Part shown: positions 38,223-64,000 of the stretch, piece by piece
How the letters are laid out: each line of letters starts with the position of its first letter
How positions within the stretch are numbered: the first letter of the stretch is position 1
Origin: Lachnoanaerobaculum gingivalis
Lineage (GTDB): Bacteria > Bacillota > Clostridia > Lachnospirales > Lachnospiraceae
Direction: 5' to 3'
Assembly: GCF_003862475.1 (NCBI RefSeq)
Contig: NZ_RRCO01000001.1
Location: 682,001-746,000, forward strand
DNA length: 64,000 bases
Made by a program: the position numbers and the translations under genes
The notes under the pieces: model-generated
The model's input: the letters and a program-made list of their open reading frames with translations, nothing else
Databases searched by the model: none
What the model was told of the DNA's origin: nothing

Positions 38223-38591
38223 TTATCTACTTTTACCACTTATAAAATCTTTTATTCTTTTTTTTAGAATTATTATACCAAGAATAACAATTCCGGATAA
38301 ATATATTCGTATGTATAAATTAATTAATATTTTATATAAAAACACTATATTTAAGAGGTATGCTATCCACACTAATATAAATGCTACACTTTCAGTAATT
38401 ATTATTATATATACTAGCCAATATACTTTTTCATTCCTTGGCCACAAAAAAAATAATATGCTTGTATACTTATTAAGCTTTATTTTTTTCTTATATTTTT
38501 CTATATCAGTTTTATCTGTTCCCCAACAGACACCATAAAGTAGTATATATCCTAAAAAAGTCACTATTGCTGTAGTACAGACATTCGACAT
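38223..38591 (-). CDS. Small membrane protein, likely immunity of the full-length Rhs (family A, copy 1)
   Basis: 122 residues, three membrane segments. It begins nine bases after the stop of the 1715-residue Rhs gene, the expected position of the cognate immunity gene. The first 18 residues (MSNVCTTAIVTFLGYILL) differ from the tandem copies, showing a recombination joint within the gene. A polytopic membrane immunity protein fits the hydrophobic, glycine-rich tip of this Rhs, which could act in the membrane (inference). Confidence 0.82.
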   Translation of the reverse strand: MSNVCTTAIVTFLGYILLYGVCWGTDKTDIEKYKKKIKLNKYTSILFFLWPRNEKVYWLVYIIIITESVAFILVWIAYLLNIVFLYKILINLYIRIYLSGIVILGIIILKKRIKDFISGKSR

Positions 38592-41600: not shown

Positions 41601-43748
41601 ATTTCCCAAAGGATCGATTATCTTTATCAGATTTCCGTTTGCATCATAGTGATACTTATACTCACCCTTATTTTGCAAAGTCTTTTTTTCTACCAGATTT
41701 ATTGCATTATAACTATACTCTACCTCTCCTCCGTCAGGATATACTTCCTTTATAAGGTTTTGGCAAAGATCATACTCCATTCTGTAAATCTCACCGTCAG
41801 GCAGGGTAAAATCATTTATATTATTTAACTCATTATAGTTTATCTTTGTTATACCGCCTCTAAAGTCTTCAAATAAAGACAGTTTCCCATTCTCTGTATA
41901 GCTATATCTACAGGTATTTCCTAAGGCATCCTTTACAGCGGTCAATAAGTCTCTCTCATCATAGTAAAACCCTGTTTTATTACCTTCTCCGTCAATGCTT
42001 GCAATCACACGATTAAGGTTATCATACTCATAAGTGGTTACTTTACCGTTTTCTTCTTCGATACCGGATATATTCCCTCTGTTATCATAGTAAACTTTTC
42101 TTTTGGAATTGTCAGGCAAAGTTATTATAAGGCTTTCTGTGTTGCCAGCTTTGCTGTAATCAAGCTTTGTACCTTCTCCTAAAGCATTTTTACTTTCTAT
42201 GATTCTTCCTTTATCATCATAGAAATACTTTTCAATCTCTTCACCGTTTATATAATGGACTGCTGCATTCCCTTCTCTGTCATAGTCTATACCTTCGCTT
42301 TGATTGTCAGGAAAAGTAACCTTTGTAAGTTTTCCTTCCTTATCATACTCATAGGATGTTATATTTCCTTTTTTATCCTTATATGAGGTCAACAGATTTC
42401 TTGTATCATAAGTAAAGCTTTCCGACTCACCTGCGTACTCACTTTCTATATTTCTGAAATTCTCATCATGTATATGTACCTCTGCGTTTCCATTCTGATT
42501 TATGACAAAGGTCTTACTTTCCTCACTTTTATACTCATATCTTATTATTCCTCCGTCGGCAAATTTTTGTATCTTTACCCTGTTTTCACCGTCGTAAAGG
42601 TTTTTAAGGACATAGATTCCCCTTGGATTTTTTATCTTTTCCAAAAGTTCATCTTTATAGTAATAGCTGTATGTAAGTTTTCCCTCATGGTATACTTTTC
42701 CAAGTTGATTTCCTTCATACCTGTACTCTACTTTTCTTCCGGTATGATCTTTTATCTCACTTAATTTTCCGAAGTCATTGTAGTAAAGGGCTATTTTACT
42801 TCCACTTTTTTCGGATACTTCTATCAGTCTGCCTTTTGCATCATAAGAAAGATAGACCTCCTCGCCATCCTTTCTTTCTATACGCAAAAGCTTCCCCTCT
42901 TTATCAAAAAGGTATATAAGTCCGCTTTCAGCATTGTAAATAAATCCTGTTTGCGTTTGCTTTAAACGATTGAAATCATCAAAAACAGAATGTATTCGTT
43001 CTTCTTCATCCACAAAATATGCTTCATCCTGTCCGTCGGATAAATGTAATATATATCCGTTTGCTTCACGACTTATAGATATTTCATAGCTGTGTCTCCA
43101 ACCTTTTCCCAGTACTCCCGTTCTTTTTTCACTACTGTTATAAGACCTTATAAAACCTACAGGAAATTTTGATCTGAGCACAATATCTTCTTTACTATAT
43201 GTAAAGTTTCCGGTATTTGCATTTACCGGATCTCCCGTCATGGCACATAATGCACCCCTTGCCCCCTTTAAAAAATCTTCCATACTGTTGTTTTTCATAA
43301 GATCTTTTAAAAGTTCATTCCATGAGGCAAAGGCAGGACCGTTCTTTTCAAGCATCTTTGAAATGATTTTATAGATTTCTTCCTTTAGCTGTACATCACT
43401 AAGTTCTAAAACCGCCGGCACTGCATTATTTCTTACACGATTTAACGCACCCGTATAAACCGCACTGTAACTTCCATCCTGATTTTTGATTATCTTTACT
43501 CCTGCACAGGCTGCCAAACTTCCCATAAGTTTTAACATAAGCTTGTCTTTCTCACTTGGCACTCCTGCCGTGACAGGCATTGCACCAAGCATCATTGGAA
43601 GCAGTCTTTCAAAGTCCTTTGACATATCCTTATAAGGCTCTTTTAATTCTTCATATGTCCTTGATTTTTTCCCCTTAAGCAATACTTTATCAGCTGATAT
43701 ATTTACATCACTTTTTAACTTTATGGAACTTCCCTTTACTTTTTTCAT
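38601..43748 (-). CDS. Rhs/YD-repeat polymorphic toxin, full length
   Basis: 1715 residues. The first 160 or so form a helical N-terminal region; DUF6531-like start of the Rhs shell follows (GDPVNANTGNFTYSKEDIVL, about 168-187). Over 25 YD-type repeats (YDxxGNxxxxxD) form the cocoon up to QYGYCLGNPEKFVDLDG (about 1465-1482), which replaces the usual DPxGL cleavage motif. The tip of about 235 residues has glycine-zipper hydrophobic stretches (GAGIGAVFGFAGG, GTGVGIGYLVAGG) and a helical C-terminal domain of unknown activity. No signal peptide, so export must use a special route; spike and chaperone candidates lie just upstream in the operon. Ends at the family A immunity gene. Confidence 0.92.
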   Translation of the reverse strand: MKKVKGSSIKLKSDVNISADKVLLKGKKSRTYEELKEPYKDMSKDFERLLPMMLGAMPVTAGVPSEKDKLMLKLMGSLAACAGVKIIKNQDGSYSAVYTGALNRVRNNAVPAVLELSDVQLKEEIYKIISKMLEKNGPAFASWNELLKDLMKNNSMEDFLKGARGALCAMTGDPVNANTGNFTYSKEDIVLRSKFPVGFIRSYNSSEKRTGVLGKGWRHSYEISISREANGYILHLSDGQDEAYFVDEEERIHSVFDDFNRLKQTQTGFIYNAESGLIYLFDKEGKLLRIERKDGEEVYLSYDAKGRLIEVSEKSGSKIALYYNDFGKLSEIKDHTGRKVEYRYEGNQLGKVYHEGKLTYSYYYKDELLEKIKNPRGIYVLKNLYDGENRVKIQKFADGGIIRYEYKSEESKTFVINQNGNAEVHIHDENFRNIESEYAGESESFTYDTRNLLTSYKDKKGNITSYEYDKEGKLTKVTFPDNQSEGIDYDREGNAAVHYINGEEIEKYFYDDKGRIIESKNALGEGTKLDYSKAGNTESLIITLPDNSKRKVYYDNRGNISGIEEENGKVTTYEYDNLNRVIASIDGEGNKTGFYYDERDLLTAVKDALGNTCRYSYTENGKLSLFEDFRGGITKINYNELNNINDFTLPDGEIYRMEYDLCQNLIKEVYPDGGEVEYSYNAINLVEKKTLQNKGEYKYHYDANGNLIKIIDPLGNIEEYSYDERNRLISYRDKSGEETEYEYGKHSLNITNNLGTHKIKYDILGRIILETDVYGFTREYEYNELGKIKKIKSGELETLYDYYKGGLLQRKTYPDKRYEIFTYDKNLNVVKRENEKGDYVLFTYDKLNRLIEAKNNFSQKQSFEYDAMGNVIKETDAMGHMTKYNYSLGGKLISVIDAMGNRTEYNYDKVGRLITVYRHEGDKELISGVESANTSLKEPIDAVSIPRVTRYKRDLMGNIVSVINALGYEETFSYDLLGRVTEKKDREGYNTAYSYTEAGDIKSIIYNDGKSVEYTYNSLRQLSQVKDVIGTINIDSDKFGRTTKVVDYNGEEVSYRYGRYGERLKTLYPDGSSVSYEYDKYLRLTSLTSGNKRVDYTYDKEGRLIRKDMSDDISSIYEYNERGLLSGLCHLKNNVKLEEYAYDYDLLGNKTKIVRHRDVNSKGIKENDNKEKIIHKLWDDSSTFYYSYDALSRLIEVKRGDRLVSKYTYDAYGNRESLKSGNDLEIRYTYDALDRLIKEGGLQGNKTYEYDKRGNLIGITDRGKRVRVYEYDTTGRLGLSYSKSGKARSYSYDGLGNRMGIKEYEREIGYGEDGLKSILEENLSELTPSYEESYILDRTRAYHNLLQNKTIKRGSQAIQSYIWDFNVAYMEEGEKEFTYLQDELGSTIRLLEQGGESQAVYGYDDFGEDTYNTQGQIQPFGYTGYRYDNVADTYFAQAREYVPGVGRFAGEDWIKGEIYYPTSLNQYGYCLGNPEKFVDLDGKTPTILIGAGIGAVFGFAGGLISEEIEIAKGNQKNINWNNVIVDTTSGLAVGAIAGTGVGIGYLVAGGMSVGAGNYVTKVAANGEFKSKSLQEHFVDGAISSVVWGISAAAGGTMQKEVQELKEISKIIDNGLYNIALAKAVQGSAYMGDAPGENMVDVGKWQYTDFVQKMTLASLKTNVLATAKSILSDIVMKFAKDKIYKKQNNNMSDEELREKFERYINRSTKVGKCFAE

Positions 43749-43794: not shown

Positions 43795-44340
43795 TTAGTG
43801 CATATTTGGATTTACCTGCTTTAGTTCTCCCATATATTCACCAAAGAGAAATAATAACTCTTTAGATGTATCTTTAAAGATATCCGTATCGATTACCGAC
43901 TCTAAGGCTTTTTTCCAAAGAATTGAAATGATATCTTCATATCCCTTTAAAACAAACCTTATTCCTTCTTCTATCTCCGGCTCACTTAACAAATGTTTTC
44001 CTATACCCTCCATCATTTCTTCACGAATTTTAAAGGAATCTTTTTTCATAAAATCCGGAATCCAATACCTGATACCTAAAGGTTTATCTATATACAAGCC
44101 CTCATCTGAGGCATATAGCATAATTTTATAGCTTTTTGTATAAATACTTGTATTAAGGAAAAATAATATAAGATACTTAAGCTTATATATCCACTTTTCC
44201 TCTATCACATTTGACAGTATGCTTTTTATTTCTTCAGATAAATCCTGTATATTATAATCTCTATACTCCCGAATTTTTTCGCTGAGCCACCTGTATCTGA
44301 AACTTTTAAAATATTCCTTTTTTTGTTTTTCCCTATTCAT
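43795..44340 (-). CDS. Hypothetical protein of the injection locus
   Basis: 181 residues, Lys/Glu/Ile-rich, probably all-helical and cytoplasmic. It overlaps the chaperone candidate by eight bases and ends 46 bases before the Rhs gene, so it is co-translated with both. No family recognised. Possible roles are a second Rhs chaperone or adaptor, or an immunity protein for an upstream effector; position favours a role in loading the Rhs protein. Confidence 0.75.
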   Translation of the reverse strand: MNREKQKKEYFKSFRYRWLSEKIREYRDYNIQDLSEEIKSILSNVIEEKWIYKLKYLILFFLNTSIYTKSYKIMLYASDEGLYIDKPLGIRYWIPDFMKKDSFKIREEMMEGIGKHLLSEPEIEEGIRFVLKGYEDIISILWKKALESVIDTDIFKDTSKELLFLFGEYMGELKQVNPNMH

Positions 44341-44920
44341 TTGTCTTCTTTCTTACCGGTTTTATATTTTGAAGTATGTCATTCACAGCTTTTTTCCATG
44401 CCCATGATAATGGCTCCCTACAATTAAACATAATCTGCACTGTTTCTCTACCTATCTTCCCCAGACCTGTTTTATGATATATTCTCTCATCTATTCCGGG
44501 TATAATAAAATCAAAGCAATACATTTTTACACATCCTTCTTTCTCCAATTCATCATATTCTAAAAACTTTATCCCGGTATGTGCTTTTGAAAGCAGATTT
44601 TTAAAATCAGTTACCAAAGTTTTTACTTCTGTATCTTCACTGACTTTAATAAGGCTAATACTTAGATTTACATCTCCGGCAAGATTTGTTTTTATTATCT
44701 CAGGTCTAAAATTGGTAGGATATTTTATTTCTCTTATCTCTTTTGGCATATCTATAAAAGATGAAGGGGTGTATATGGATATGACATCATTAAAGTATGA
44801 AGCTTTTATAAAAATCTCAAGCTTACCGTCTATAAAATACCCTTCTTTTAGAGACATATCTTCATTCCCACAGTATTCTAATTTAAGTGGAATAATTTTT
44901 TCGTCGATATAGTTGCTCAT
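44333..44920 (-). CDS. DcrB/DUF1795-like protein, Eag-type chaperone candidate
   Basis: 195 residues, cytoplasmic. The pattern ISIYTPSSFIDMP, then KYPTNFRPEIIKTN, a central LEYDELEKEGCVKMYCFDF and a C-terminal Trp-rich helix (EPLSWAWKKAVNDIL) is that of the DcrB/Mog1-like fold. DUF1795 proteins of this fold (EagR) bind the N terminus of Rhs and other effectors and mount them on the VgrG spike in Proteobacteria. Being encoded between a DUF4280/LRR pair and the Rhs gene supports a similar role. The fold assignment is by pattern and memory, not by search. Confidence 0.65.
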   Translation of the reverse strand: MSNYIDEKIIPLKLEYCGNEDMSLKEGYFIDGKLEIFIKASYFNDVISIYTPSSFIDMPKEIREIKYPTNFRPEIIKTNLAGDVNLSISLIKVSEDTEVKTLVTDFKNLLSKAHTGIKFLEYDELEKEGCVKMYCFDFIIPGIDERIYHKTGLGKIGRETVQIMFNCREPLSWAWKKAVNDILQNIKPVRKKTNE

Positions 44921-45683: not shown

Positions 45684-47120
45684 CTAATTAATACCTTCCA
45701 TATCGTCACATATTCTTTTTATTTCATTATTGATTACATCGTTTACACTTATACTTGTATCAAATTTATATAATAACTTAAAGCTTCCTTTTTCATACTT
45801 TACTCCCTCTAATTGTCTGCCTATACATAGTTCAGAACTCCCTGAAAAATTATAGTGATAATAATTATACACTATTACTGGTCTATCCCGTTCATAAATC
45901 CAGTCTCCAGGATATCTGTTACTCTTCACTTCAATTATTATATAGTCGTTATTTGAACTTACTTTTTTAAGGTTATCTCTGAATTTTTTTAGATTAGCAT
46001 CATATATATTATCAAATCCTAATAATAAGACCGAAAGAGCCACTCCTGCACTTGTACTATCCATACCTACTTTGATGGCAGTAACATTTAGGATATTACT
46101 TACCCACCTTGGTATTGACCTCGAATCTATAATATTATCAATTAGCTTTTCTAATAGCAAAGCGTACCATGAGTTAAGATAGTATATACTTCTTGTAGCT
46201 CCATGATGATTCTCTTTTACCATTTTTTCATAATTCGTAGGGTATATGTCTTCATGCTCTTTATTAATAACCCAAACCCCTGATACTTCCTCCCTTTCAC
46301 CATTTTCAGTTTTCACCTTTTTTAATATATGTTGGTCCAAATTCCCCTTGAGTACATAATCAAACTGGTACATGTTGGGAGCATCTATCTCAATATAATA
46401 TTCTATTCCGCTATTTAAAATTATTTCAGCATAGATACATATCTCACCACTTCCCTTCACTTTTTCAATTAGTTCGTATGCACCTATATATTTAATAGAT
46501 CCCAACATATTTTTCCAATAGATAAAAATTGAACCCAGATCTGTGATTGACTTACGAATATTATAGTCTATATATATACAAAAATTATAAATTCCTGAGT
46601 TTTTAACCTTTACATGACCTATAAAGTCTTTTTTGTCACTTTTGCGACTCCAATTTTTCTTTTCATCTTCAACTATTTCTACAGCATATTTTATTTTCAC
46701 ATTATCATAGCTTGGTAAAGTTTGCCCTGATGTCTTAAATGAAACTAAACCACCCTTATTACATGTGGCTAAAGAGTCCTCCATAACGGCATAACTTTCC
46801 TCACCAACTGCGGTATCAAATATTTTCATGTTTGAATTATCGGTAGCCCACCACTTTCCAAGTTTAGGGTCACATTCACAAGGTTTACTCCTGTTTTTAT
46901 TGCACATTCCAAAGCCTTTTATATTGTCAGTAGTACTGTCATTTTCTGTAATTAAAGGCCTTCCATCTGAAGTGTGCACTCCATGATCATCTTTCAAGTT
47001 TAATACGCATGTTTTGCTTCCATAGCTGCAGGAAACCTCTGCACCTCTTACCACATATTCATATCCTCCATATCCCTTCATTTCCTGATGCTCATACATT
47101 TTCTGTATACCGTCTGCCAC
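45684..47120 (-). CDS. DUF4280 (PAAR-like) spike-tip effector candidate
   Basis: 478 residues, GTG start at 47120 (its paralogue starts with ATG at the same place), behind AAAGGGG. N-terminal DUF4280 domain: YEYVVRGAEVSCSYGSKTCVL, conserved Cys in GFGMC and CECDP, and CNKGGLVSFKTSGQ (about residues 15-125). A beta domain (RKDFIGHVKVKNSGIYNF type, about 150-270) follows, shared with the 498-residue paralogue. The last 200 residues differ between the two and contain a hydrophobic helix (about 350-368), as expected for an effector end. Sits after two VgrG-like genes, where a PAAR tip belongs. Confidence 0.85.
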   Translation of the reverse strand: MADGIQKMYEHQEMKGYGGYEYVVRGAEVSCSYGSKTCVLNLKDDHGVHTSDGRPLITENDSTTDNIKGFGMCNKNRSKPCECDPKLGKWWATDNSNMKIFDTAVGEESYAVMEDSLATCNKGGLVSFKTSGQTLPSYDNVKIKYAVEIVEDEKKNWSRKSDKKDFIGHVKVKNSGIYNFCIYIDYNIRKSITDLGSIFIYWKNMLGSIKYIGAYELIEKVKGSGEICIYAEIILNSGIEYYIEIDAPNMYQFDYVLKGNLDQHILKKVKTENGEREEVSGVWVINKEHEDIYPTNYEKMVKENHHGATRSIYYLNSWYALLLEKLIDNIIDSRSIPRWVSNILNVTAIKVGMDSTSAGVALSVLLLGFDNIYDANLKKFRDNLKKVSSNNDYIIIEVKSNRYPGDWIYERDRPVIVYNYYHYNFSGSSELCIGRQLEGVKYEKGSFKLLYKFDTSISVNDVINNEIKRICDDMEGIN

Positions 47121-48446: not shown

Positions 48447-49799
48447 TCAACTTATATGAATACCTTCACCACTCACAGTTATTCCGTCTTTTAATATTAT
48501 TTGTGTATCATCTTGTAAAAGCATAATCCTTTTACCTGCCACCATGGATATATTTGAATCCTCACTGCTTATCTCAACAGTGTCCTTTGCTTTTATCAAA
48601 ATACTTCCACTGCTTACTATCTTGACTCCTGTACTGTCATTTAGTTCAATATAATCTCCCGTATCGCTTTTTATGGTTATACCGTCCGGTGTCAGTCTTA
48701 TTTCCTTTCCGTATTTATTTCTCCAAATCTTATTTTCAGGATCGGTTCGTATTCCATCGCCCTCATTTTCATGTACCGCACTGCAAACATAGGCTTTTTC
48801 TTCATTTTCTGTGGGAAAATACAGTCTTACGCTGTCTCCCTCTTCCGGCATACAATACCACCCCGCTCCGTCACTTGAAGAATATACAGTGGAAAAATCA
48901 AACCATCTTTCTATTTCTTCATCCTTATTTTCTATATCCTCTATTGCTATCTTAACCTTTTCTTTTTCTACATTTGTAACTTTAGCGTAAAGTGATGCTC
49001 CTATTATTTTTAAATCATACTTGCTTTCTTTTTTTACTATATAGTCTATATCCTGTGTTAAATAATATGTATGGTAAAGTTCACTTCCCTCTGTTTTAGA
49101 TAAAATTTTCACTATACGGTAGTCCCTTCTGTTAAAGCTTACTCTATCTCCTAAACAATGGATTTCCCTTGATTTGACTTCATAAACTGTATATTCTTTA
49201 TTTACAACAATACGCACATCACCAGAAGTTAAAACCTTGCTTTCTCTTTTTGGCATACCGAAAAAATACTTTACCCCCTCACTCTGATAATCCGGCATTA
49301 CCACTGTCTGCTTTAAAGCTGCAATCCTTTTTATAAAGTTCCAGTCATTTTCTTCATACTGTACCAAAAATCCGGGCAATACTCCCTTTCCGTCTTCTCC
49401 TGTTATATAGTATGACTCTTCATATCCTTCTTTTAATGCATTAAGTATATCAGCATATTCTCCGGTACCCTTAGAAAATCCTCTTGTATGTACTTTTTCT
49501 TCCATTAAAGAACTTCCTGTGATCAATTCCAATTCAACAAGGAAACTTCCACTTTCTTTAAAAAAACATATCTTTTCTAGCAGTCCATAAAATATCGTAC
49601 TCTCTTTATCTGTTTCATCAAGGGCATTAACCCTTACCCATCTTGTATTTTGGGCAGTATTAATATACTCTTCTTCTCTTTTTTCTTCTATTATGGCTCT
49701 TATTATTGCCCTACCATGCTTGCCCACCTCATGTTTTGCTTCATATCCCGTTACCGCAAGTACATCAAAAATATCAAGTTTTATAAGGTTTTCTCTCAT
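48447..49799 (-). CDS. VgrG-like spike protein 1 (gp27/gp5 type)
   Basis: 450 residues; its ATG overlaps the TGA of the preceding gene (ATGA). gp27-like part about 1-260 (GFLVQYEENDWNFIKRIAAL is the typical second-domain motif); OB-fold about 270-360 (YAKVTNVEKEKVKIAIED, WYCMPEEGDSVRLYFP); beta-helical spike to the C terminus (IRLTPDGITIKSDTGDYIEL, then repeating ISMVAGKRI-type strands). This is the spike of contractile phage tails and T6SS. Found in a Gram-positive without an outer membrane, it points to an injection-like or extracellular contractile particle. Confidence 0.88.
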   Translation of the reverse strand: MRENLIKLDIFDVLAVTGYEAKHEVGKHGRAIIRAIIEEKREEEYINTAQNTRWVRVNALDETDKESTIFYGLLEKICFFKESGSFLVELELITGSSLMEEKVHTRGFSKGTGEYADILNALKEGYEESYYITGEDGKGVLPGFLVQYEENDWNFIKRIAALKQTVVMPDYQSEGVKYFFGMPKRESKVLTSGDVRIVVNKEYTVYEVKSREIHCLGDRVSFNRRDYRIVKILSKTEGSELYHTYYLTQDIDYIVKKESKYDLKIIGASLYAKVTNVEKEKVKIAIEDIENKDEEIERWFDFSTVYSSSDGAGWYCMPEEGDSVRLYFPTENEEKAYVCSAVHENEGDGIRTDPENKIWRNKYGKEIRLTPDGITIKSDTGDYIELNDSTGVKIVSSGSILIKAKDTVEISSEDSNISMVAGKRIMLLQDDTQIILKDGITVSGEGIHIS

Positions 49800-50272
49800 A
49801 CACTCTCCTCCACTTCCACAAACTCTATTCCCTTAACATCTCTTCTTATTAAACTTTCTGCAAAATCAAGATTTACAATAAATCTTATCTTTTTATTCTC
49901 TTCCCTGACAGCTTTAAAGAAATTATTGAAATCAGTGTTTAGCAGATTTTCGGTATAAAGCAAATAATAGCTTTGCATCTCTCTACTCTCTTTATCTATC
50001 AGCATAACTCTTTTTACAAAGATTTCTATATCAAAAAGAAGCAATACCTCTCTAAATCTTTCTGAAATAAGAGGATATACATTCATCATCAAATCAGGAA
50101 ATATAAAATTCTTTGTTTTTTCTATTTCAAGAACAAGCTCTCTTGGCATTTCATAAAATCTTTCATTAAGAGCATCTATATTACTTGGAATATTCTCTAA
50201 AGTATATATTCGTATCCCTCTTGTATTTTCAAGATTTTCTTTTATATAAAAATATGGCAAGTTTCCTTTCAT
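49796..50272 (-). CDS. Imm11/Imm43-like (DUF1629-type) protein
   Basis: 158 residues from the ATG at 50272 (MKGNLPYFYIKE), with GGAG six bases upstream; a GTG at 50323 overlapping the FHA gene is less likely. The ordering FPDLMMNVYPLISERFREVL, VKRVMLIDKESREMQ and a closing VNLDFAESLIRRDVKGIEF is the pattern I associate with DUF1629-type immunity proteins. Located between a double-FHA gene and VgrG, an odd place for an immunity gene, so a structural role in the spike or adaptor is also possible. Low certainty on the family. Confidence 0.55.
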   Translation of the reverse strand: MKGNLPYFYIKENLENTRGIRIYTLENIPSNIDALNERFYEMPRELVLEIEKTKNFIFPDLMMNVYPLISERFREVLLLFDIEIFVKRVMLIDKESREMQSYYLLYTENLLNTDFNNFFKAVREENKKIRFIVNLDFAESLIRRDVKGIEFVEVEESV

Positions 50273-50316
50273 AGTTTCTCCATAATTATTCTCTTTATAT
50301 TTATTGTTCCATGTTT

Positions 50317-51282
50317 CTACCACTGATGGTATTCTTTTGCAAAGTCAAAGTAGAAAAACTTACTCTTGCCAACCTCCAAGATGTCTCCTTCTTTTAAATC
50401 TTTCGATGTATATGTTGCCGATTCATTTAGCCTTACAAATCCCATTGACTCTTCTCCAAGAAGTGTTCCTTGCAAATTTCTTGTATCATAGGCTATAACA
50501 GCATGATTCTTATCTCTTATATCTTCATCTCCTATAATCTGTATGCTCATAATATCATGACTTCCTATATAGTTTTTTCCTTCCACTACATTGTAAGACT
50601 TTCCTTGACGCTTTCCTTCTATACATACAAGCCATGCATAAATCGGCTTTTCTTCTTCAAAAGAAAGATTTTTACCTACCCTTTTATCTCTGTATTTTTC
50701 TTCCTCCGTTGGTTTTTCTCTTTTAAGCTTCCTATACTTTCTCTCTTTTTTTATCAGTTTTTCTTTATCCTCATTATCTATCTCTTCATATTCAAATCCC
50801 GGAAAATATTTGATGATTGCGGATAAAAGCTCCACATACATGAACTTACTCTCACCTATTTCCAAGATATCTTTATTTTTAAGAACATATTTATCATATA
50901 CAGGCTTATTATCCATATATACAATTCCGTCAGCTCTTGCAGGAATCAGGTTTGCTTCTCTTGTCTCTTTATCAAAAAACACCAATGTAAACTTACCCGG
51001 CATCTTCTCATCCCCAAGTATCTGTATCTCATTGTCTCTGTCCGTACCTATAAAGTTTTCTCCAAAGCTTATTACATAACTCTTTCCTCGTCTTACACCC
51101 TCTATACATACAAGCCATGCACATACCGGTCTCTCTTCCTTTAGGGAAAGTCCACATTCTTTTCTTAAATTTACATAGACTTTTTCAGGAGTGTCCAGAT
51201 CAAAACCGCAGTGCGGACATATTGTTCCATATCTTGTTTTTGAAAACCTGTGTCCGTAAGGGCAGTCCATTATGTTTGACAT
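50317..51282 (-). CDS. Zinc-ribbon protein with two FHA domains
   Basis: 321 residues, cytoplasmic. N-terminal zinc ribbon (CPYGHRF and CPHCGFD, about 7-29). First FHA domain about 50-155: GENFIGTDRDNEIQI is kept but the Ser/His recognition loop is replaced by KMPGKFTL. Second FHA domain about 210-318: NYIGSHDIMSIQI and DKNHAVIAYD retain the Asn-His pair. FHA domains bind phosphothreonine, so one site may be active and one structural. FHA proteins switch on T6SS assembly in Proteobacteria (Fha1/TagH). AGGAGG before the ATG. Similar in plan to the protein at the right edge. Confidence 0.88.
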   Translation of the reverse strand: MSNIMDCPYGHRFSKTRYGTICPHCGFDLDTPEKVYVNLRKECGLSLKEERPVCAWLVCIEGVRRGKSYVISFGENFIGTDRDNEIQILGDEKMPGKFTLVFFDKETREANLIPARADGIVYMDNKPVYDKYVLKNKDILEIGESKFMYVELLSAIIKYFPGFEYEEIDNEDKEKLIKKERKYRKLKREKPTEEEKYRDKRVGKNLSFEEEKPIYAWLVCIEGKRQGKSYNVVEGKNYIGSHDIMSIQIIGDEDIRDKNHAVIAYDTRNLQGTLLGEESMGFVRLNESATYTSKDLKEGDILEVGKSKFFYFDFAKEYHQW

Positions 51283-52096: not shown

Positions 52097-54697
52097 TTAG
52101 TGTTCTCCATCAAAAAAGTCACAAATCCACTCGTCGGTTTCAAACTTATACTCCTGCCCCTCTCCTGCATATAATATATCTTTCAACCTATATACCGGTA
52201 CTATCTGAAATCCCCATTTTTTATAGTCTACAAAGGCAAATATCTTCAGTTCTCCATTTTGTATATCATCAGTGTCTTCCTGCTTAATATATCCGCTATA
52301 TCTTCCGGCAAGTTCCATCCTGTCAGTCTCTCTTGCCTCATCTTTTTTAAAGTGAAACAGATATTCGTATCTTATATTCTCCGAAGCATCATACAGATAC
52401 ATTCTAAGTAATATATCCTCCAAACTTCTTAACAAACTACCGGTCATTTTATTACTTTCAAAACCGTCAATTAGTACTTCCTCTTTGCCTGAATAGGACA
52501 ATGCCTTAATCTTATATGGTATCAGTGCTTCTTCTTCTCGAATATCAAAACCTGCATATCCTGTACGCTTATCATACAGATACCTCATAAGTCCATCGAC
52601 ACATGCAAGTTTAAGTTCTTCTTTTTTAACACTTCCCCCACTTTGCATCATATTACCGGGTACAAATTCTTTCAGTGCATCTCTAAAAAGACCGATCTTG
52701 CAGGACTGCCCTGTAAGTCTTATCATATCAAAGTTATAAAGTTCCCCATTTATATAAAGTCTTTCCATAAATGCTTTCATAACCGCATATATTTCACCGG
52801 CAATAAGCTTTTCCACTTCATAACGGTTAAAATTTATCTTTGGCATTTCCTCCAGTATCTCAAGCTTATCTTCTTTAAATACAGAAATCTTATAACGATC
52901 CGCCTCAAGCCTTAGAAGTCCCGACTTTATATTCTTATCCTCCGGTACCTCTATAGCGATATCATTTCCCGAAAAAAGTCCTTGTTTTATTTCATCTGCC
53001 AGGGTGAATAAAAAGAAGTAATTATTTCTTACCCTGTAATACCCTTCCTTTCCATAGGTCTCAAAGTTCTTAAAAGCAGTAGGTAAAATTTCTTCCACAC
53101 TTTCATAAGCTTTTTGCAAACCCTCGTAGAAGCTTTCCACACTTTCCTCATCAATATATCTGTAAGGATCTCCTGAGAGTTCATCAATCACTTCACTTCC
53201 AAGATCTTTCTCAAGTCCAAGAAGTTTGGATACAATTTTCAGTTTTAGAAGTTGCATTATTCTGTAGGTAATATTATTACCTCCAAAATCCGTATTACCG
53301 TTTTTGTAGCTGTTTTCCATGATATAGGTCTGTATATCACCCTTTGCATGTACCTTAAACTTACAGGCACTAAGATCCGTGGTTCCTCCTCCACAGTCCA
53401 TTATCAGTGCCTTATAGCTTTCACCGTCTTTTAAGCGATTTTTCTCCCTCATCTTACTTATAAAACTATAAAGTACTGCCGTGCTTTCATCCAAAGTAAC
53501 CTTTATTTCTACCGATAGCATTTCCGACAGAATACTAAGCATTTGCTCATACACATGCTTTTGCTTTACCGGTACTGTAATATACACCTCTTTTATACGG
53601 CATTTAAAACTGTCCCTTGTAATGTCCAGTACATGCCTTAGGTATGCCCCTATAATCTCTATTCTTTGTACGTATCTGTACCTTCCCTTTGAGTCTGTGA
53701 GTTCTTCCTTCCTCTCAAAATCTCCTACCCATCTTTTGATATCATAAAATACTGAAAATCCTTTATCCGTATAGCTTAGATTGGCATACCACAAAGCTTT
53801 TCTCCCGAAAGCGTACTCTATACTACCTTCTTTAACCTCTGTTACCGCCACAACTGTTGGAATCATCATCTCTGTAAAATTTTCTCCACCAACAGATTCA
53901 AAAAACAGTGTATGGCAGATAGTATTTTCCTTTATACCTCTTTGCTTTGCAGTATTTATCTGTCTGTAATAGCTGCTGTCCGCATACATGGCAACAGTTG
54001 TATTGGTAGAGCCCAAATCCAGAGCTATCGGCATATGTAAATCTATAAGTGGAAGTACTTCAAAGTCCATTATAGGAAGTTTATAGGCTTTATATCTTAG
54101 AAGTGTCGTATTTCCTTCTTCATTTCCCATATATGTATGATAAATAAATCCGGAAGCCTCTCTTTCCATAAGATAAAGGCTGTAATCCTTGATTTCTGTA
54201 GCAACACCTGGCAGATCCGCCTCTTTTACCAAATATAAAGAATCCTTTTTATCTCCCATTGCTACAACATTAAAGACGGCACACACCTTTTTATCTCCAC
54301 TTACAATCAGAGCATTTGTATTTAAGAATTTATCTTTGTACTCAATTTTATAATCATCTAAAAAATTTAATGCAGCACCTTCATAAATACTGATCTTTCC
54401 GGATATGCGAAGTTCTTCTTTCTCCGGCTCTCTTATGCTGAATTTATCAAGAACTTGCTCTATACGTTCCCTTCCACCGGGTATCTCTTTTCTTATCAAC
54501 TCATCTTCAAAGCTTTGGCAATATGAAAGAATCATCTCTATAAGCTCTTCATTTGTCAGGTTCTTATCAAGTCCCTTTACTATATGCTCCCTACGACAAA
54601 CCTCCCTTAGTCTGTATTCACTCATTAACTCAAGCTCGCTTCTTGAATACAGTGCAGCCTGTTCCACTTTTATTTCTCTGTTAAGCTTATAGCCCAT
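52097..54697 (-). CDS. Hsp70/actin-like ATPase with N-terminal SAP-like extension
   Basis: 866 residues. The N terminus (about 17-62) has a SAP-like two-helix motif (YRLREVCRREHI, then NLTNEELIEMILSYC). About 100-215 is an extra beta domain. The Hsp70-type nucleotide domain runs from about 222: phosphate 1 ALDLGSTNTTVAMY, phosphate 2 LIMDCGGGTTDLSACKF (about 435), and an adenosine-like segment MIRLTGQSCKIGLFRDAL. No standard substrate-binding domain is visible; the C-terminal part is unlike DnaK. A dedicated chaperone or assembly ATPase for large secreted proteins of the locus is plausible. Not the housekeeping DnaK. Confidence 0.82.
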   Translation of the reverse strand: MGYKLNREIKVEQAALYSRSELELMSEYRLREVCRREHIVKGLDKNLTNEELIEMILSYCQSFEDELIRKEIPGGRERIEQVLDKFSIREPEKEELRISGKISIYEGAALNFLDDYKIEYKDKFLNTNALIVSGDKKVCAVFNVVAMGDKKDSLYLVKEADLPGVATEIKDYSLYLMEREASGFIYHTYMGNEEGNTTLLRYKAYKLPIMDFEVLPLIDLHMPIALDLGSTNTTVAMYADSSYYRQINTAKQRGIKENTICHTLFFESVGGENFTEMMIPTVVAVTEVKEGSIEYAFGRKALWYANLSYTDKGFSVFYDIKRWVGDFERKEELTDSKGRYRYVQRIEIIGAYLRHVLDITRDSFKCRIKEVYITVPVKQKHVYEQMLSILSEMLSVEIKVTLDESTAVLYSFISKMREKNRLKDGESYKALIMDCGGGTTDLSACKFKVHAKGDIQTYIMENSYKNGNTDFGGNNITYRIMQLLKLKIVSKLLGLEKDLGSEVIDELSGDPYRYIDEESVESFYEGLQKAYESVEEILPTAFKNFETYGKEGYYRVRNNYFFLFTLADEIKQGLFSGNDIAIEVPEDKNIKSGLLRLEADRYKISVFKEDKLEILEEMPKINFNRYEVEKLIAGEIYAVMKAFMERLYINGELYNFDMIRLTGQSCKIGLFRDALKEFVPGNMMQSGGSVKKEELKLACVDGLMRYLYDKRTGYAGFDIREEEALIPYKIKALSYSGKEEVLIDGFESNKMTGSLLRSLEDILLRMYLYDASENIRYEYLFHFKKDEARETDRMELAGRYSGYIKQEDTDDIQNGELKIFAFVDYKKWGFQIVPVYRLKDILYAGEGQEYKFETDEWICDFFDGEH

Positions 54698-55522: not shown

Positions 55523-56254
55523 CTATTCATAATACTCCACATTTACAGCATCATCATACTTCAAATCTAAAGAAAACCCTTTTGGTAATATTATTTTTTT
55601 TAAGCTTGGGCACTCATCAAAAAGATATCCTTTTGCATCTATTATTTCCAGTGATTTTGGAAACTTTATCTCTTCTAATTTCTCAGCACCCATAAATACC
55701 TCTCCACCTATATATTCCAAGCCTTCCGGAAGTTCTACTTTTCTTAAACCGGTATAACAAAATGAAAATTCATCTATTTTCCTAATACTGTTTGGGAAGT
55801 CTATATACTCCAAATCCTTGCAATTAGCAAAAGCAAACATGTCAATATTATCTAATTTTTCATTTAGTACTACCGTTCTCAAATGTTTGCAACCTTCAAA
55901 GCAAGCAAATGAGATTTCTGTTACATTCTCGGGTAACTTAACCTCTATTAAATTTTTACAACCTAAAAAAGCACAAGAATTAATTTTTACTACACTATCA
56001 GGTATAACTACTTTTTTTAACTCTGAACAATTTTTAAAAGCTTTTTCTCCAATCTCTGTCACACCATACGGAATCTCAATTTCCTTTTTGGGCATAATAT
56101 CTGCTAAAATCCCTCTTTTATATTCCAGTAGAACGTTGTCTTCGATTATAAACTTGTGTTGAAAGTTTAACCCAATATATATTACAACGGATATAATTAT
56201 GAATAATACTAAAAATGTGATTTTCTTTTTACTGCATCTATTGCAACTTCTCAT
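55523..56254 (-). CDS. Membrane-anchored leucine-rich repeat protein (BspA-like)
   Basis: 243 residues. N-terminal membrane anchor (about 12-28), linker with the motif ADIMPKKEIEIPYG, then about seven LRR_5 repeats (IGEKAFKNCSELKKV, INSCAFLGCKNLIEV and others). It matches the protein at 44,945 over the whole length, so the two arose by duplication of a cassette. Both follow a DUF4280 gene, here with one further LRR gene between. Immunity candidate for the DUF4280 effector, or a surface adhesin as BspA proteins often are. Confidence 0.82.
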   Translation of the reverse strand: MRSCNRCSKKKITFLVLFIIISVVIYIGLNFQHKFIIEDNVLLEYKRGILADIMPKKEIEIPYGVTEIGEKAFKNCSELKKVVIPDSVVKINSCAFLGCKNLIEVKLPENVTEISFACFEGCKHLRTVVLNEKLDNIDMFAFANCKDLEYIDFPNSIRKIDEFSFCYTGLRKVELPEGLEYIGGEVFMGAEKLEEIKFPKSLEIIDAKGYLFDECPSLKKIILPKGFSLDLKYDDAVNVEYYE

Positions 56255-57997: not shown

Positions 57998-59494
57998 TCA
58001 TTCCGAAAAATTGTATAATTTAATTATATCTTTCATATTCTTTGTGCCAATCTTGCAATCATTAACCGAGGCTTTTAATTCAATATTTGGTTTATTCTTG
58101 AGCTTTTTTATCTCCCCCCACATATACTTTTCACCATATAGTGTATAGACATCGCCCTCTTTGTTATTCTTGTCGTACCATGAAACTTCTGTTCTTCTTC
58201 CCTCCACATCATAAATATTACTTGTACTTGTATATCTATTATCTTCATATATGTCTATCTTTATAAGTTTTCCTCCCCACTCTATCACATTATTATAAAC
58301 AGACATTTGCTTAAGCAATATATCTATTTCTGACTCAAAAAAATTTGTTGCTAAAAAGTCTATTGCAGTAGCGTAAACCCCTACTGCTGCATTATATAAT
58401 CCTGCTGTAGTAATAACTGTTGTTTTTATTCCTCCCAATATAGTATCTTTCAACTTATCTTTAGATTCCTTTATAAATTGTTCATCTTCTAATGCCTTTT
58501 GAAAAAAATAGGAATTCACTTCATCTAAGTAAACAATATATCTTTTTACAGTAACTAAACCAGTATTTGTTGCAAACCAGTTTTCACATGTATGAGGTAA
58601 CATCCATTGCACTAAACCTATATCATTAGAAATTATCTTATCCTGATTACCAATCAGTTTATAATCAAATGCATTTTCTCTCTTACAATCTATCTCGAAA
58701 TAATAATCTCTATTCGCATAAAGTTTAATATCTATCCAATATTTCCAGTGGTATGCAACTGTTTTACTCTCATGAGAATCTATATCAATATATAATATTT
58801 CTTCCGGAAACCTGTCTTCTCTAATTATATCATGCTTTTTTATCTCGTACTCACCTATACAACAAGCTTTACCACGTATATGTTCATAAACAAATATAAA
58901 CCCAGGTACCTCTATAATTGTATTATTATAAAACTCTATGCCAAAATTATATAAACCCGAATTTCTAACCCTTACATGACCGATAAAATCCTTTCTATCT
59001 CTCCCTCGCCTCCAACTTCCTTTTTCATCCTCAACTATTTCTACAGCACCTTTTATATACTCATTTTTATAGCTTGGTGTATTTTGACCTGATGTTTGAA
59101 ATGAAACTATTCCCCCTTTTGAACATATTGTTGTTGCATTCTGTGTAACTGCTCTACCAGGTTTTTTAGCATCTTCATTTGATATTATTAAATTAATATT
59201 TACAACATCTGACCACTCTCTCAATTCCGGCTTACATTTACACCAATTGTTTTTATTTTTCTTACACATACCAAAACCTTTTACATTGTCAGACTTATAA
59301 TCATTTGATGTAATTAGTTGCTTTTCATCTGCTGTATAAATTCCATTTCTATTTATCAAGTTTAACACACATGAGCTACTTCCATAGTTGCAAACTACTT
59401 TAGCCCCCCTTACAACATAATCATAATATCCTTTCCCTACCACTTCCTGATAATCATACATTTTCTGTAAATTGGTTTTACCGTTTTCAGCCAT
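57998..59494 (-). CDS. DUF4280 (PAAR-like) spike-tip effector candidate
   Basis: 498 residues. DUF4280 domain about 20-125 (YDYVVRGAKVVCNYGSSSCVL, GFGMC, WCKCKP, CSKGGIVSFQTSGQ). Beta domain about 145-280 (RKDFIGHVRVRNSGLYNF), as in the paralogue at 45,684. The last 180 residues are unique: a hydrophobic segment (about 355-385, ILGGIKTTVITTAGLYNAA start) and a C-terminal domain with EVSWYDKNNKEGDVYTLYGEKY. DUF4280 is related to PAAR, the sharp cap of VgrG. A variable end on a constant tip is the standard build of a spike-borne effector. AAGGGTGA before the ATG. Confidence 0.83.
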   Translation of the reverse strand: MAENGKTNLQKMYDYQEVVGKGYYDYVVRGAKVVCNYGSSSCVLNLINRNGIYTADEKQLITSNDYKSDNVKGFGMCKKNKNNWCKCKPELREWSDVVNINLIISNEDAKKPGRAVTQNATTICSKGGIVSFQTSGQNTPSYKNEYIKGAVEIVEDEKGSWRRGRDRKDFIGHVRVRNSGLYNFGIEFYNNTIIEVPGFIFVYEHIRGKACCIGEYEIKKHDIIREDRFPEEILYIDIDSHESKTVAYHWKYWIDIKLYANRDYYFEIDCKRENAFDYKLIGNQDKIISNDIGLVQWMLPHTCENWFATNTGLVTVKRYIVYLDEVNSYFFQKALEDEQFIKESKDKLKDTILGGIKTTVITTAGLYNAAVGVYATAIDFLATNFFESEIDILLKQMSVYNNVIEWGGKLIKIDIYEDNRYTSTSNIYDVEGRRTEVSWYDKNNKEGDVYTLYGEKYMWGEIKKLKNKPNIELKASVNDCKIGTKNMKDIIKLYNFSE

Positions 59495-60823: not shown

Positions 60824-62662
60824 TCAGTTGGAAGAAGACTCCGACTCGCTTGTTTGCTGTACCGTAGATTCATTAGTCGCTGTGGAGGGTACTGCTTCTT
60901 TCTGTTTTTTCTCATCAATCCTTTTTTGTACATCATTAAGCTTTTTATCCATCTCTATGGTGTTTATCTCATCATTAAGCTTGACATAAAGTCTTCTTGC
61001 ATACTCATAGTTTTCCCTTGCTGTTTCAAAATCACCTCTTAAAAAAGCCTCATCTCCTGTAATTGCATAGCCGTTTGCAGATTTTTTCTCCTCCTCACTT
61101 TCATTGATTTTCTTATCTGCTGTAGAAATTTTTTCTTCGATTTCAGCAAGTCCGGCACTTTCGCCTGATTTTTCCAATAAATCCTTTGCTGTATTATAAT
61201 TTGCTCTTGCTGACAAAAAATCCCCCTTACTTAATGCCTCGTCTCCTGCACTTAACATATCATTTGCCGATTGAAAGTTCTTTGACTGTTTATCCGCTTC
61301 AGCTTGTTTTCCCTCCTGATCCTTTGCAATAGCTTGATCCACTGCTAAGAGTTTTGCCTCTGCCTTTAACTTTCCCTCTTCATAGCCAATCTTTCTTGCC
61401 TCATTTTTTGCATCAAGGTATCTTTCTCTTGCCCTATCATATATTTCGGAATCCAAAAGAATATCTCCATTATCCAGGCTCAGATTTACGCTTTCATATC
61501 CTGATATAAAATTAAGTTTTCCTTTTACATAAGAAATCCCGGCATTATCCGCATATGGAATTTCATCCAGTACCAGCTCATACAGGGATTTTGCTTCACT
61601 ATAACTTTTCCCATCATATTTTTCATCTACCTCAAGTATTCCCTCTATAACTTGTTCATAGTGATAAAGCAAGTCTTTCATTTCCTTATCTCTTAGGCTT
61701 TCCGCCTTCTTTATAGACTCTTCACATTCTGTATCCGCTTTTTTATAATTTTCCATTTCAATAAATTTAAGCATCTTATCATAATGTGTATCCATATCTT
61801 CTTTCAATTCTCTTCTATACCGACTATAAAAATAAAAAGCAATAAATGTCGCCAAAATTAAAACTACAGCAACAATCGAACCGATTAAAATAAGCCTTCT
61901 TCTTTTTTTCTTCTTTGTGTCCGACTCAATAAATACTTTATCAATATAAATTCCTGCAATGGTATAATTGTCAATATATTTTCTGTTTTTATCAAGTAGA
62001 GCAGTTTCCACTTCTCCGAGACATTCGCTTGGATCTTTTCCACTGTTTTCAAAAATCTTATCAATTTCTCCCTCGGACACATTTTCCCAAATGCCCTTTG
62101 TATAGAGAATTAAAATATCTGTATCAAAAAGCTTTATTTTCCCTGATATCACAGGTGAAAAATTCTTCTGCCCCAAGTATGCATATAGATTACTTCTTTG
62201 TTCATGCCTTGATAGGGCATCTTCACTAAGTAACTCCTTTGATACCATCTCAGTACTTAGAGATGTATCGGTACTTTTGTAAAAAACCTTATTATTTCTG
62301 TATAACCTTATTCTTGCATTTCCGGCATAGGCTAAACGTAAACTTTCATAATCAGTTATTGCAACTACTATTGACGCTTTCAATCTCATGTACTTTTCAG
62401 CCTTTAAAAGTACTTCATTGGCATATTTTAGGTACTTATGTATACTCGTCTTTGACATTGACGGTTTTTCCTGAAATTTTGCAATTATACTTTCAACCGC
62501 TTCCTTTGCAGACTCGGTATCTGCTATATCCTCAATACCGTCTGCCAATACATAACAGGCAAAATTATCAAGCTCTGCATAAGCAAAATAATCACTGTTT
62601 TTAAGTGCACTGCCCTCTTCTGAAATAAAGTTTGTATTAAATCTGCTGTTTTGCTTACGCAT
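60824..62662 (-). CDS. Membrane PP2C-like phosphatase with extracytoplasmic TPR-like repeats
   Basis: 612 residues. PP2C-like cytoplasmic domain about 12-240: the metal motif is changed to CYVLADGIEDIAD (canonical DGMGG), the second motif is AGNARIRLYRNNKV in place of GDSR, and the last reads DNYTIAGIYI (canonical DNxT). So part of the metal site is altered, and activity is uncertain. A KKKKRRRLI stop-transfer and one membrane segment (about 257-280) follow. Outside are two to three TPR-like helical repeats (GDEALSKGDFLSARANYNTAK, GDEAFLRGDFETARENYEYAR) and a Ser-rich tail. With the FHA proteins this suggests a phospho-signalling switch reaching across the membrane. Confidence 0.8.
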   Translation of the reverse strand: MRKQNSRFNTNFISEEGSALKNSDYFAYAELDNFACYVLADGIEDIADTESAKEAVESIIAKFQEKPSMSKTSIHKYLKYANEVLLKAEKYMRLKASIVVAITDYESLRLAYAGNARIRLYRNNKVFYKSTDTSLSTEMVSKELLSEDALSRHEQRSNLYAYLGQKNFSPVISGKIKLFDTDILILYTKGIWENVSEGEIDKIFENSGKDPSECLGEVETALLDKNRKYIDNYTIAGIYIDKVFIESDTKKKKRRRLILIGSIVAVVLILATFIAFYFYSRYRRELKEDMDTHYDKMLKFIEMENYKKADTECEESIKKAESLRDKEMKDLLYHYEQVIEGILEVDEKYDGKSYSEAKSLYELVLDEIPYADNAGISYVKGKLNFISGYESVNLSLDNGDILLDSEIYDRARERYLDAKNEARKIGYEEGKLKAEAKLLAVDQAIAKDQEGKQAEADKQSKNFQSANDMLSAGDEALSKGDFLSARANYNTAKDLLEKSGESAGLAEIEEKISTADKKINESEEEKKSANGYAITGDEAFLRGDFETARENYEYARRLYVKLNDEINTIEMDKKLNDVQKRIDEKKQKEAVPSTATNESTVQQTSESESSSN

Positions 62663-62671
62663 TGTCCCCTC

Positions 62672-63487
62672 CTATATTCCAATAAGTATCAGTCCCAGAT
62701 TAGCCGTTTCTTCATCTTTATTCTTGATAACTTCTATAATCTCTCTCGCTTTTTCTTTGCATCCATTCTTTTTTACAAGAACCTCTTCAATTTCCCTAAC
62801 TGAAATACTGTTTTGTACACTTTCAGTTATCATAACAACTATATCTTTTTTCTTTAATTTTATCTCGCTACTACTTACAAGAGGAGACATATAATCATCT
62901 CTTCCTACAAAGTTATATGCCCTGTTTATATCTGAAATTCTAAGTGCCGCCTCTTTACTTAAAAGTCCCTTATTTACTTTTTCTTTTATAAGTTCCTCCA
63001 TAATCTGTCCCCTACTAAGAAGTATCAGTTCCTTACCACGAAATACATAAACATTCATATGTCCGACAATACCATACTTTAGTATATTTCTATTAAGTAT
63101 AAGACAACCTGCATATGCTTTTCCTGTCTCCAGTGTATTTAAAACATTTGTATTAGCTAATTTAAATGCCTTTTCAAAGAAATTATCCGGACTTTGTGTA
63201 CTGTCATATTGATTATATAATTTAGTAAAAGTTCTGACTGTTGTCAGTGCTGCAACTTTTCCGACATAATCTCTTCCTTCTCCTGCTGTAAGAATCGCCA
63301 TCATACCGGTATTCATTCTTTTAAGTCCATATGCATTTGCCTGAATCTGTCTTTTTCCTATATCAAGCACAGCCTCTGCATCAAATATCCGTTTTTTTTC
63401 TTCCGTAATTTTTATACATATTCTCATGATTAAAATTCCAAAAGCAATTGTAATGCAGATTACATCTGCCCAAAAAGCAGTTCCCAT
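62672..63487 (-). CDS. Membrane-anchored degenerate PP2C-like protein
   Basis: 271 residues. One membrane segment at the start (about 4-22, FWADVICITIAFGILIMRI), then a PP2C-like fold: GEGRDYVGKVAALTTV where an active enzyme has GDGMGG, AGCLILNRNILKYGIVGHMNVYVFRG where GDSR is expected, and KKKDIVVMITESVQNSI near the end. The metal-binding Asp residues are missing, so this is probably a pseudophosphatase acting as a phospho-reader or scaffold. It lies nine bases before the second PP2C-like gene and 29 bases after the FHA gene. Confidence 0.75.
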   Translation of the reverse strand: MGTAFWADVICITIAFGILIMRICIKITEEKKRIFDAEAVLDIGKRQIQANAYGLKRMNTGMMAILTAGEGRDYVGKVAALTTVRTFTKLYNQYDSTQSPDNFFEKAFKLANTNVLNTLETGKAYAGCLILNRNILKYGIVGHMNVYVFRGKELILLSRGQIMEELIKEKVNKGLLSKEAALRISDINRAYNFVGRDDYMSPLVSSSEIKLKKKDIVVMITESVQNSISVREIEEVLVKKNGCKEKAREIIEVIKNKDEETANLGLILIGI

Positions 63488-63516: not shown

Positions 63517-64000
63517 CTACCATGAAAACTGCTTACCACATAAAGCAATATATAAAAACTCGCTCTCACCCATGGTAATTACATCATATGTTTCCAAAAC
63601 CTGAGGTGTATACACAGCTTTTCCATTTAAATAGGTAATCCCTCCTCCTTCGGTACATATCAAAGTTCCTTCAAGGTCTCTTTCATCAAAGGATAAAATA
63701 GCATGATTTTCCTGTTTTATTGCATTATCACCTATAATTTGAATATCCATAGCATCTGTTCTTCCTATATAGTTTTTCCCAAATACTACTCTATAATCCT
63801 TTCCATACCTCGGTCCTTTAATGCATACCAACCATGCACACACAGGCTTTGTTTTTATTCTGATTAGACTTTCTTCAAGTTCCTCGTCATCAAAAGATTC
63901 CTCAATTTCTTTTCTTTCAGTCATATCCATGTTACAGTATGGACATATATTTCCATATCTTCTCTTTGAAAACATATGTCCATTTTTGCATCGTATTAAA
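63517..64000 (-). CDS. Zinc-ribbon FHA protein, 5' end beyond the window
   Basis: About 160 residues are visible. The first ATG in frame (63,975) is not the start: the frame stays open to the window edge and reads LIRCKNGHMFSKRRYGNICPYCNMD, which aligns with the N terminus of the FHA protein at 51,282 (MDCPYGHRFSKTRYGTICPHC). So the zinc ribbon continues off the edge. One FHA domain follows (about residues 60-160 of the visible part): GKNYIGRTDAMDIQI, QENHAILSFDERD, GITYLNGKAVY. The Arg, Asn and His of a working phosphothreonine reader are kept. Start of the visible injection locus. Confidence 0.85.
   Translation of the reverse strand, partial: LIRCKNGHMFSKRRYGNICPYCNMDMTERKEIEESFDDEELEESLIRIKTKPVCAWLVCIKGPRYGKDYRVVFGKNYIGRTDAMDIQIIGDNAIKQENHAILSFDERDLEGTLICTEGGGITYLNGKAVYTPQVLETYDVITMGESEFLYIALCGKQFSW

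Follow-up and report, generated by a model that had tools for sequence, protein, structure and literature searches.

An Hsp70-like ATPase as a core gene of a contractile injection locus in Bacillota

DUF4280/PAAR_H2 proteins of Gram-positive genomes have been described in a 2016 note and a 2021 survey (PMC5349215, PMC8651086). The survey finds PAAR_H2 genes beside VgrG genes of the Phage_GPD type, in surroundings free of type VI secretion system (T6SS) and extracellular contractile injection system (CIS) genes, and both speculate on a phage-like translocation system, where the rest of the machine is stated or speculated to be unknown (PMC5349215, PMC8651086). Here we present a locus from Lachnoanaerobaculum gingivalis that may be the same system. 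It lies in a stretch of 64,000 nucleotides (hereafter the window, C1:682001-746000 of a 3.1-Mb genome), and the gene of interest, at window positions 52097-54697 on the minus strand, encodes an 866-residue Hsp70-like ATPase.

Haloarchaeal CISs are reported to be closest to those of Bacillota (PMC11566945). Hsp70 goes unnamed in the accessible parts of that paper and of PMC12210884 and PMC10598620, as do Hsp70, DnaK, DnaJ and DUF4280 in those of PMC3482391. The open-access literature, a scope with subscription papers and bioRxiv largely outside it, yielded no account of a core Hsp70 in a contractile machine. Within that scope, such a component is apparently unreported.

The Hsp70-like protein and its pairing with the sheath

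The open reading frame (ORF) begins with ATG, and the closest named relatives of its product, at 95% identity, come from Lachnoanaerobaculum strains. Since full-length homologues span 28-95% identity, the ORF is, as judged from these alignments, a conserved gene and not a chance reading frame. The product scores 11.0 bits against the Pfam HSP70 model, below the cut-off of 20.6, so that its assignment rests on profile-profile and fold evidence. Comparison with 26 DnaK sequences by hhalign gives Prob 96 and E 4.3e-9 over 215 columns. An AlphaFold2 model built from an alignment of 14 homologues (mean predicted local distance difference test, pLDDT, 79.4; predicted template modelling score, pTM, 0.78) matches DnaK in Foldseek at E 2.6e-19. 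Structural re-alignment with VIA identifies the Hsp70 nucleotide-binding-domain fold over residues ~219-714 at Z 25.9-27.6 among the 50 matches listed, where the top value of 27.6 is shared by the Hsp70 of the ribosome-associated complex (RAC; 7x3k_B) and DnaK.

Inspection of the sequence agrees with the preliminary description in two respects: the Hsp70 nucleotide-domain motifs DLGSTNTTV and DCGGGTTDLS are present, and the ATPase domain, starting near residue 219, is preceded by ~218 residues (about 220 had been estimated). All 33 homologues keep D227, N232, T233, K321, E404, D434, G436-438 and T439; the equivalents of the DnaK ATP-site residues D8, K70, E171, D194 and T199 are conserved in 33 of 33. 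The product is an Hsp70 relative. The ordinary DnaK of the same genome is encoded by a separate gene on another contig (G000 C10). Membership of the SrfB family (PF07520) was also considered and rejected, since the score of 13.9 bits falls short of the 27.1 cut-off; the similarity is weak and local, being confined to the region of the second phosphate motif with E 0.014, and any SrfB match at E up to 10 is found in three of the 14 homologues.

The surrounding genes make up a Bacillota contractile injection system. Their same-strand series runs on beyond the window, where C1:746014-749893 encodes an FHA protein, a pair of Hcp-like proteins and a protein of 737 residues. For the latter, VIA lists 30 sheath entries, from T6SSs, Afp, PVC, pyocin and phages, whose Z values span 9.6-15.6, while the row below them drops to 6.0. 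The underlying model reaches a pLDDT of only 58.9; Foldseek alone gives a best E of 0.1 to an unrelated entry, the sheath matches having come from the VIA re-alignment, and a sequence-profile search of the PDB returns only unrelated viral NS1 rows. The assignment stands despite the weak model because 30 sheaths in one block, and then a gap, leave little room for another explanation, and the 737-residue protein is, by predicted fold, a single-chain contractile sheath. The two Hcp-like proteins give weak matches to Hcp1 (6bdc, E 0.016) and TssD (E 0.071).

The Hsp70-like gene is a core gene of this injection system. Of 398 Bacillota genomes drawn, 13 are matched by the sheath profile, and exactly these 13 are also matched by the Hsp70-like profile (Fisher p 1.2e-24, uncorrected for kinship), which supports the view that the protein is specific to this kind of injection locus. 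The outcome that the preliminary description had named as its refutation, homologues lying mostly away from such loci, is not what is observed: besides the 13 matching genomes, no match to the Hsp70-like protein occurs in 50,697 phage records or 72,556 plasmid records, and viral contigs hold a single partial match at 27% identity. Within the family draw of 200 genomes, 12 carry both genes, one carries the sheath only (G084), none carries the Hsp70-like gene only and 187 carry neither. Full-length Hsp70-like matches appear in 9 of the 391 genomes of the class draw, or 10 of 391 if G432 is added. G432, with two partial Hsp70 matches (38.3 and 33.6 bits; frames of 586 and 625 residues) and no sheath, was not counted as a member. 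In those class-draw genomes that belong to neither of the other draws, the sheath was located in the retrieved flanking sequence or by search. Because some of the 30 positive genomes were found through the Hsp70-like gene, the family and phylum draws carry the argument.

The copy number of the Hsp70-like gene equals that of the sheath in 28 of these 30 genomes. One of the others, G524, has one Hsp70-like gene and two sheath genes, which stand in tandem in one locus (C2:3179810-3184927). In a reduced, divergent form of the locus (G068, G823, G949), only the sheath, Hcp, the Hsp70-like protein and two conserved proteins designated C4 and C6 are reliably matched; the FHA, J-protein and C7 profiles match nothing there. 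Distances among Hsp70-like proteins correlate with those among sheaths at Mantel r 0.72 (n=32) and with those of C4, C6 or FHA at 0.82-0.83. As the value is no higher with the sheath than with these proteins, particular partners are not separable from shared descent.

Proposed role and competing explanations

The ATPase domain is flanked by two further regions. In the model, the folded N-terminal extension comprises helices at residues 19-59 and then an alpha/beta region, where pLDDT is ~90 for the greater part of residues 71-190, and no Pfam family is consistently recognised in it across the 14 homologues. The "SAP-like" N terminus of the preliminary description was not supported: no Pfam SAP match occurs at E up to 10 in these homologues, although helices are predicted there. 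The same description saw no DnaK-type substrate domain, a claim made doubtful by the folded beta domain that the model places after the ATPase domain at residues 715-852. Among the 50 structure alignments listed, four carry on beyond the ATPase domain and end at model residue 825-852; in three, residue 852 is reached with 455-458 residues aligned, as compared with 347-368 for those that stop at the ATPase domain. On this structural prediction, residues 715-852 may be a diverged substrate-binding beta domain. No alpha-helical lid follows it, and the protein has no sign of a VLLLD linker. In 32 of 33 homologues, the C terminus is FF(D/N)G followed by two more residues; the remaining homologue is truncated by a contig end, and this type of ending is absent from every other frame among the 9185 open frames of the loci.

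A candidate partner is a J-domain protein of 120-165 residues encoded in the locus of 25 of the 30 genomes. HPD is present in all 25, of which 22 also carry an FFG(F/Y)-like motif, and the one protein tested scores 97 bits against PF00226. Three loci (G620, G913, G951) have the J-protein gene within 900 nucleotides of the Hsp70-like gene. In a J-protein search of 200 genomes, all eight matches above 115 bits fall within system loci, where six of the eight belong to the query alignment.

The reading we prefer, at a probability of roughly 0.55, is that of a dedicated Hsp70-type ATPase that forms a core part of the machine and whose Hsp70 cycle helps to build or reset its cytoplasmic parts. ATP hydrolysis would be triggered by the locus-encoded J-domain protein where one is present, and the cycle would assist the building or resetting of those parts. 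The client would belong to the baseplate/sheath side as opposed to a single effector that needs folding, and docking onto the machine would fall to the N-terminal extension and the conserved FF(D/N)G tail. We infer the cooperation of the pair, the remodelling of proteins and the identity of the client. A tie to machine assembly or upkeep fits better than a tie to one effector because no ClpV exceeds its cut-off in the positive genomes examined, the reduced form keeps the Hsp70-like gene and extra VgrG modules do without it. These machine-linked facts favour the dedicated assembly or reset chaperone.

Several observations weigh against this interpretation. G084 carries a sheath and, in a profile search of its genome, no Hsp70-like match; its contig breaks off within C7, immediately short of where the gene would be expected. 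G111 has two Hsp70-like genes and one sheath, the second copy belonging to an effector module that lies apart from the sheath. Five of the 30 genomes lack the J-protein (G000, which contains the window, G088, G068, G823 and G949), and in G000 and G088 the sole J-domain match is a DnaJ-sized frame of 369 residues. In the window's own genome only the housekeeping DnaJ was found, and the locus J-protein is absent from its genus. The equivalent of DnaK R167, which we take to be a J-domain contact, is not conserved in the family. With the J-gene in 25 of 30 genomes and R167 not kept, a J-stimulated Hsp70 cycle is, on sequence grounds, likely in most systems but not established. Comparison of the 715-852 region with the DnaK substrate-binding beta domain is negative at the profile-profile level (Prob 0.1%), such that the putative substrate-binding domain is visible by fold only. 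Rows obtained under a different alignment-mode setting, for the N- and C-terminal regions against other locus families and for the ATPase domain against DnaK, cover mostly 1-5 aligned columns and were left out of account. Finally, C4, C6 and C7 are not identifiable as baseplate parts, having no Pfam or useful PDB sequence match.

An alternative that we consider doubtful is that the protein substitutes for ClpV, where Hsp70 and J-protein would strip or recycle the contracted sheath by analogy with Hsc70 and auxilin, which uncoat clathrin. ClpV (TIGR03345) is above cut-off in none of 21 positive genomes and in one of 14 control genomes, the pairing with the sheath is nearly one-to-one, and no other remodelling ATPase family is recognised in the core operon, where flanking unlabelled ORFs were only partly scanned. 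Four of the 21 (G647, G794, G907, G913) also lack a one-piece ClpB-size match, and ClpB therefore cannot be the general answer there. Most positive genomes nevertheless encode a ClpB-like protein, and ClpB is reported to act in DnaK-independent disassembly of the Francisella T6SS (PMC7182274). The substitution is further opposed by G524, with its two sheath genes to one Hsp70-like gene, and by gene order, in which the Hsp70-like gene adjoins C4 and C6 and not the sheath. With no ClpV over its cut-off, the replacement of ClpV suggested in the preliminary description is possible, with a putative reset step.

A structural or switch role is rather unlikely. Here, the protein would act as a nucleotide-bound subunit with an Hsp70 fold while the J-protein recruits the housekeeping DnaK, for which Ssz1 in RAC offers a model. 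The tie of the RAC Hsp70 with DnaK at Z 27.6, the large conserved extension, the lost R167 equivalent and the five genomes without J-protein all suit such a subunit; the K70, E171 and T199 equivalents, kept among the ATP-site residues in every homologue, do not.

Improbable to a still greater degree is a chaperone that keeps Rhs/PAAR-like effectors loadable. The large size and modularity of Rhs and DUF4280 proteins speak for it, as does the second G111 copy, which stands in a VgrG/Rhs module without a sheath. The extra VgrG modules of G172 and G366 come with no additional Hsp70, the Rhs profile matches in only seven of 33 Hsp70-bearing regions (some cut short), and the reduced subtype retains the Hsp70-like gene without the usual effector accessory proteins. 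Because the gene follows the sheath and not the effector modules, help with Rhs folding, the other role offered in the preliminary description, loses ground. A stray housekeeping chaperone gene lying in the locus by chance, for which the Hsp70 fold alone speaks, is refuted by the sheath co-occurrence (13 of 13 in 398 genomes), with the true dnaK elsewhere, and its probability is negligible.

Returning to the dedicated chaperone, its wider setting can be stated tentatively, at somewhat less than even odds: the loci would represent a separate Bacillota class of cell-held contractile injection machine, with a conserved energy-using core of Hsp70, usually accompanied by a J-protein, in place of an AAA+ ATPase. 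As part of the same joint proposal, that core would assemble or reset the baseplate/sheath. The results suggest that an Hsp70, instead of the ClpV motor of known relatives, can serve to build or reset machines of this kind.

Gene content of the locus

Across relatives, the genes usually follow the order (VWA), sheath, Hcp, Hcp, (J-domain protein), FHA, FHA, PP2C, PP2C/TPR, C7, C4, Hsp70-like, C6 and then the VgrG/DUF4280/effector module. Table 1 presents the features of the window together with the reduced-form loci. C4 and C6 are each located no more than 300 nucleotides from the Hsp70-like gene for 24 of its 33 copies. C4 has no Pfam or PDB sequence match and C6 no useful PDB sequence match; that both are baseplate parts is a guess. 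The hydrophobic segment of the larger PP2C-like protein, read from the sequence, spans residues about 255-280.

Table 1. Features of the injection locus (window coordinates) and loci of the reduced form
Feature	Position	Strand	Basis or remark
Rhs protein, 1715 aa, likely effector	38601..43748	-	PF05593 and PF20148 over cut-offs
C13, effector-module accessory protein	43795..44340	-	
C12, effector-module accessory protein	44333..44920	-	
DUF4280 PAAR-like tip protein	45684..47120	-	PF14107 57.1 bits, over cut-off 26.3
Second VgrG-related protein, 420 aa	47168..48430	-	phmmer grouping with VgrG-like proteins
VgrG-like hub/spike, 450 aa	48447..49799	-	PF04717 24.2 bits, over cut-off 23.8
C10, weak Imm11/Imm43 similarity	49796..50323	-	
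FHA (Yop-YscD_cpl) double-domain protein	50317..51282	-	PF16697 36.1 bits, over cut-off 33.2
C6, 258 aa	51302..52078	-	putative baseplate part (guess)
Hsp70-like ATPase, 866 aa, injection-locus core gene	52097..54697	-	ORF, Hsp70 fold, sheath co-occurrence
Beta domain, residues 715-866, ending in FF(D/N)G tail	52097..52555	-	model, structure alignments, tail count
Hsp70 nucleotide-binding domain, residues 219-714	52556..54043	-	VIA, hhalign, residue count
N-terminal extension, residues 1-218	54044..54697	-	AlphaFold2 model
C4, 230 aa	54737..55429	-	putative baseplate part (guess)
DUF4280 PAAR-like protein, second	57998..59494	-	PF14107 52.6 bits, over cut-off 26.3
C7, 471 aa, conserved partner of C4	59521..60936	-	
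PP2C-like protein with hydrophobic segment, TPR-like region	60824..62662	-	NF033484 71.8 bits, under cut-off 230
Second PP2C-like protein	62672..63487	-	NF033484 50.4 bits, under cut-off
FHA protein, zinc-ribbon-like start, extends past window to C1:746008	63517..64000	-	
Reduced-form loci (G068, G823, G949)	L049-L050, L201-L202, L210-L211		

FHA and PP2C proteins take part in T6SS regulation. In G054, a Ser/Thr protein kinase (PF00069, 118 bits) is encoded between the VWA and sheath genes (L043:10960-11862, minus strand), and together with the FHA and PP2C proteins it suggests phosphorylation control.

Behind the full Rhs gene, the window holds Rhs fragments at 35553-35942 and 32457-34763, alongside repeated membrane ORFs of 122 residues at 37259-37627 and 38223-38591; the fragments look like a store of spare Rhs ends. 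Three BspA-type leucine-rich-repeat proteins are encoded within the operon (window 44945-45664, 55523-56254 and 56350-57981), where all three start with a hydrophobic segment in the sequence and the two that were scanned match LRR_5. Upstream of the sheath gene at L003:10670-20000 stands a row of related ORFs of 218-233 residues with hydrophobic starts, many of them near copies, which are possible immunity or effector-cassette genes.

Comparison with known systems

The protein resembles the Hsp70 family (DnaK, HscA, Ssz1) in the fold of its ATPase domain, in its ATP-site residues and perhaps in the beta domain that follows. In contrast to that family, it scores below the Pfam HSP70 cut-off, carries a long N-terminal extension and an FF(D/N)G tail, and has neither a lid nor a sign of the VLLLD linker.

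At the level of the machine, the locus shares a contractile sheath, a putative Hcp-like tube and VgrG-like, PAAR-like and Rhs proteins with the T6SS (TssB-M, ClpV), from which it differs in its single-chain sheath, in having no ClpV over cut-off and in placing Hsp70/J in the core. A single-chain sheath is also found in extracellular CISs (Afp, PVC, Streptomyces CIS), with fold matches at similar Z; unlike these, the present system has a DUF4280 tip and an Hsp70 core, and no Afp15-type AAA+ ATPase is recognised in its core operon. The locus makes a direct test possible of whether an Hsp70/J pair assembles or resets a contractile nanomachine, a job that falls to the AAA+ protein ClpV (or ClpB) in known systems. 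The Hsp70-like gene and the sheath together also provide a clean marker pair for finding such systems across Bacillota.

The PAAR_H2, or phage-like translocation, system of Firmicutes is alike in its DUF4280 genes with Phage_GPD-type VgrG neighbours and in its occurrence in Gram-positive genomes. In contrast to the accounts of that system, a sheath, a putative tube and an Hsp70-like core are assigned in the present locus. If the two are the same system, the locus supplies the sheath, the putative tube and the energy-using core for the possible phage-like translocation system (PMC5349215, PMC8651086).

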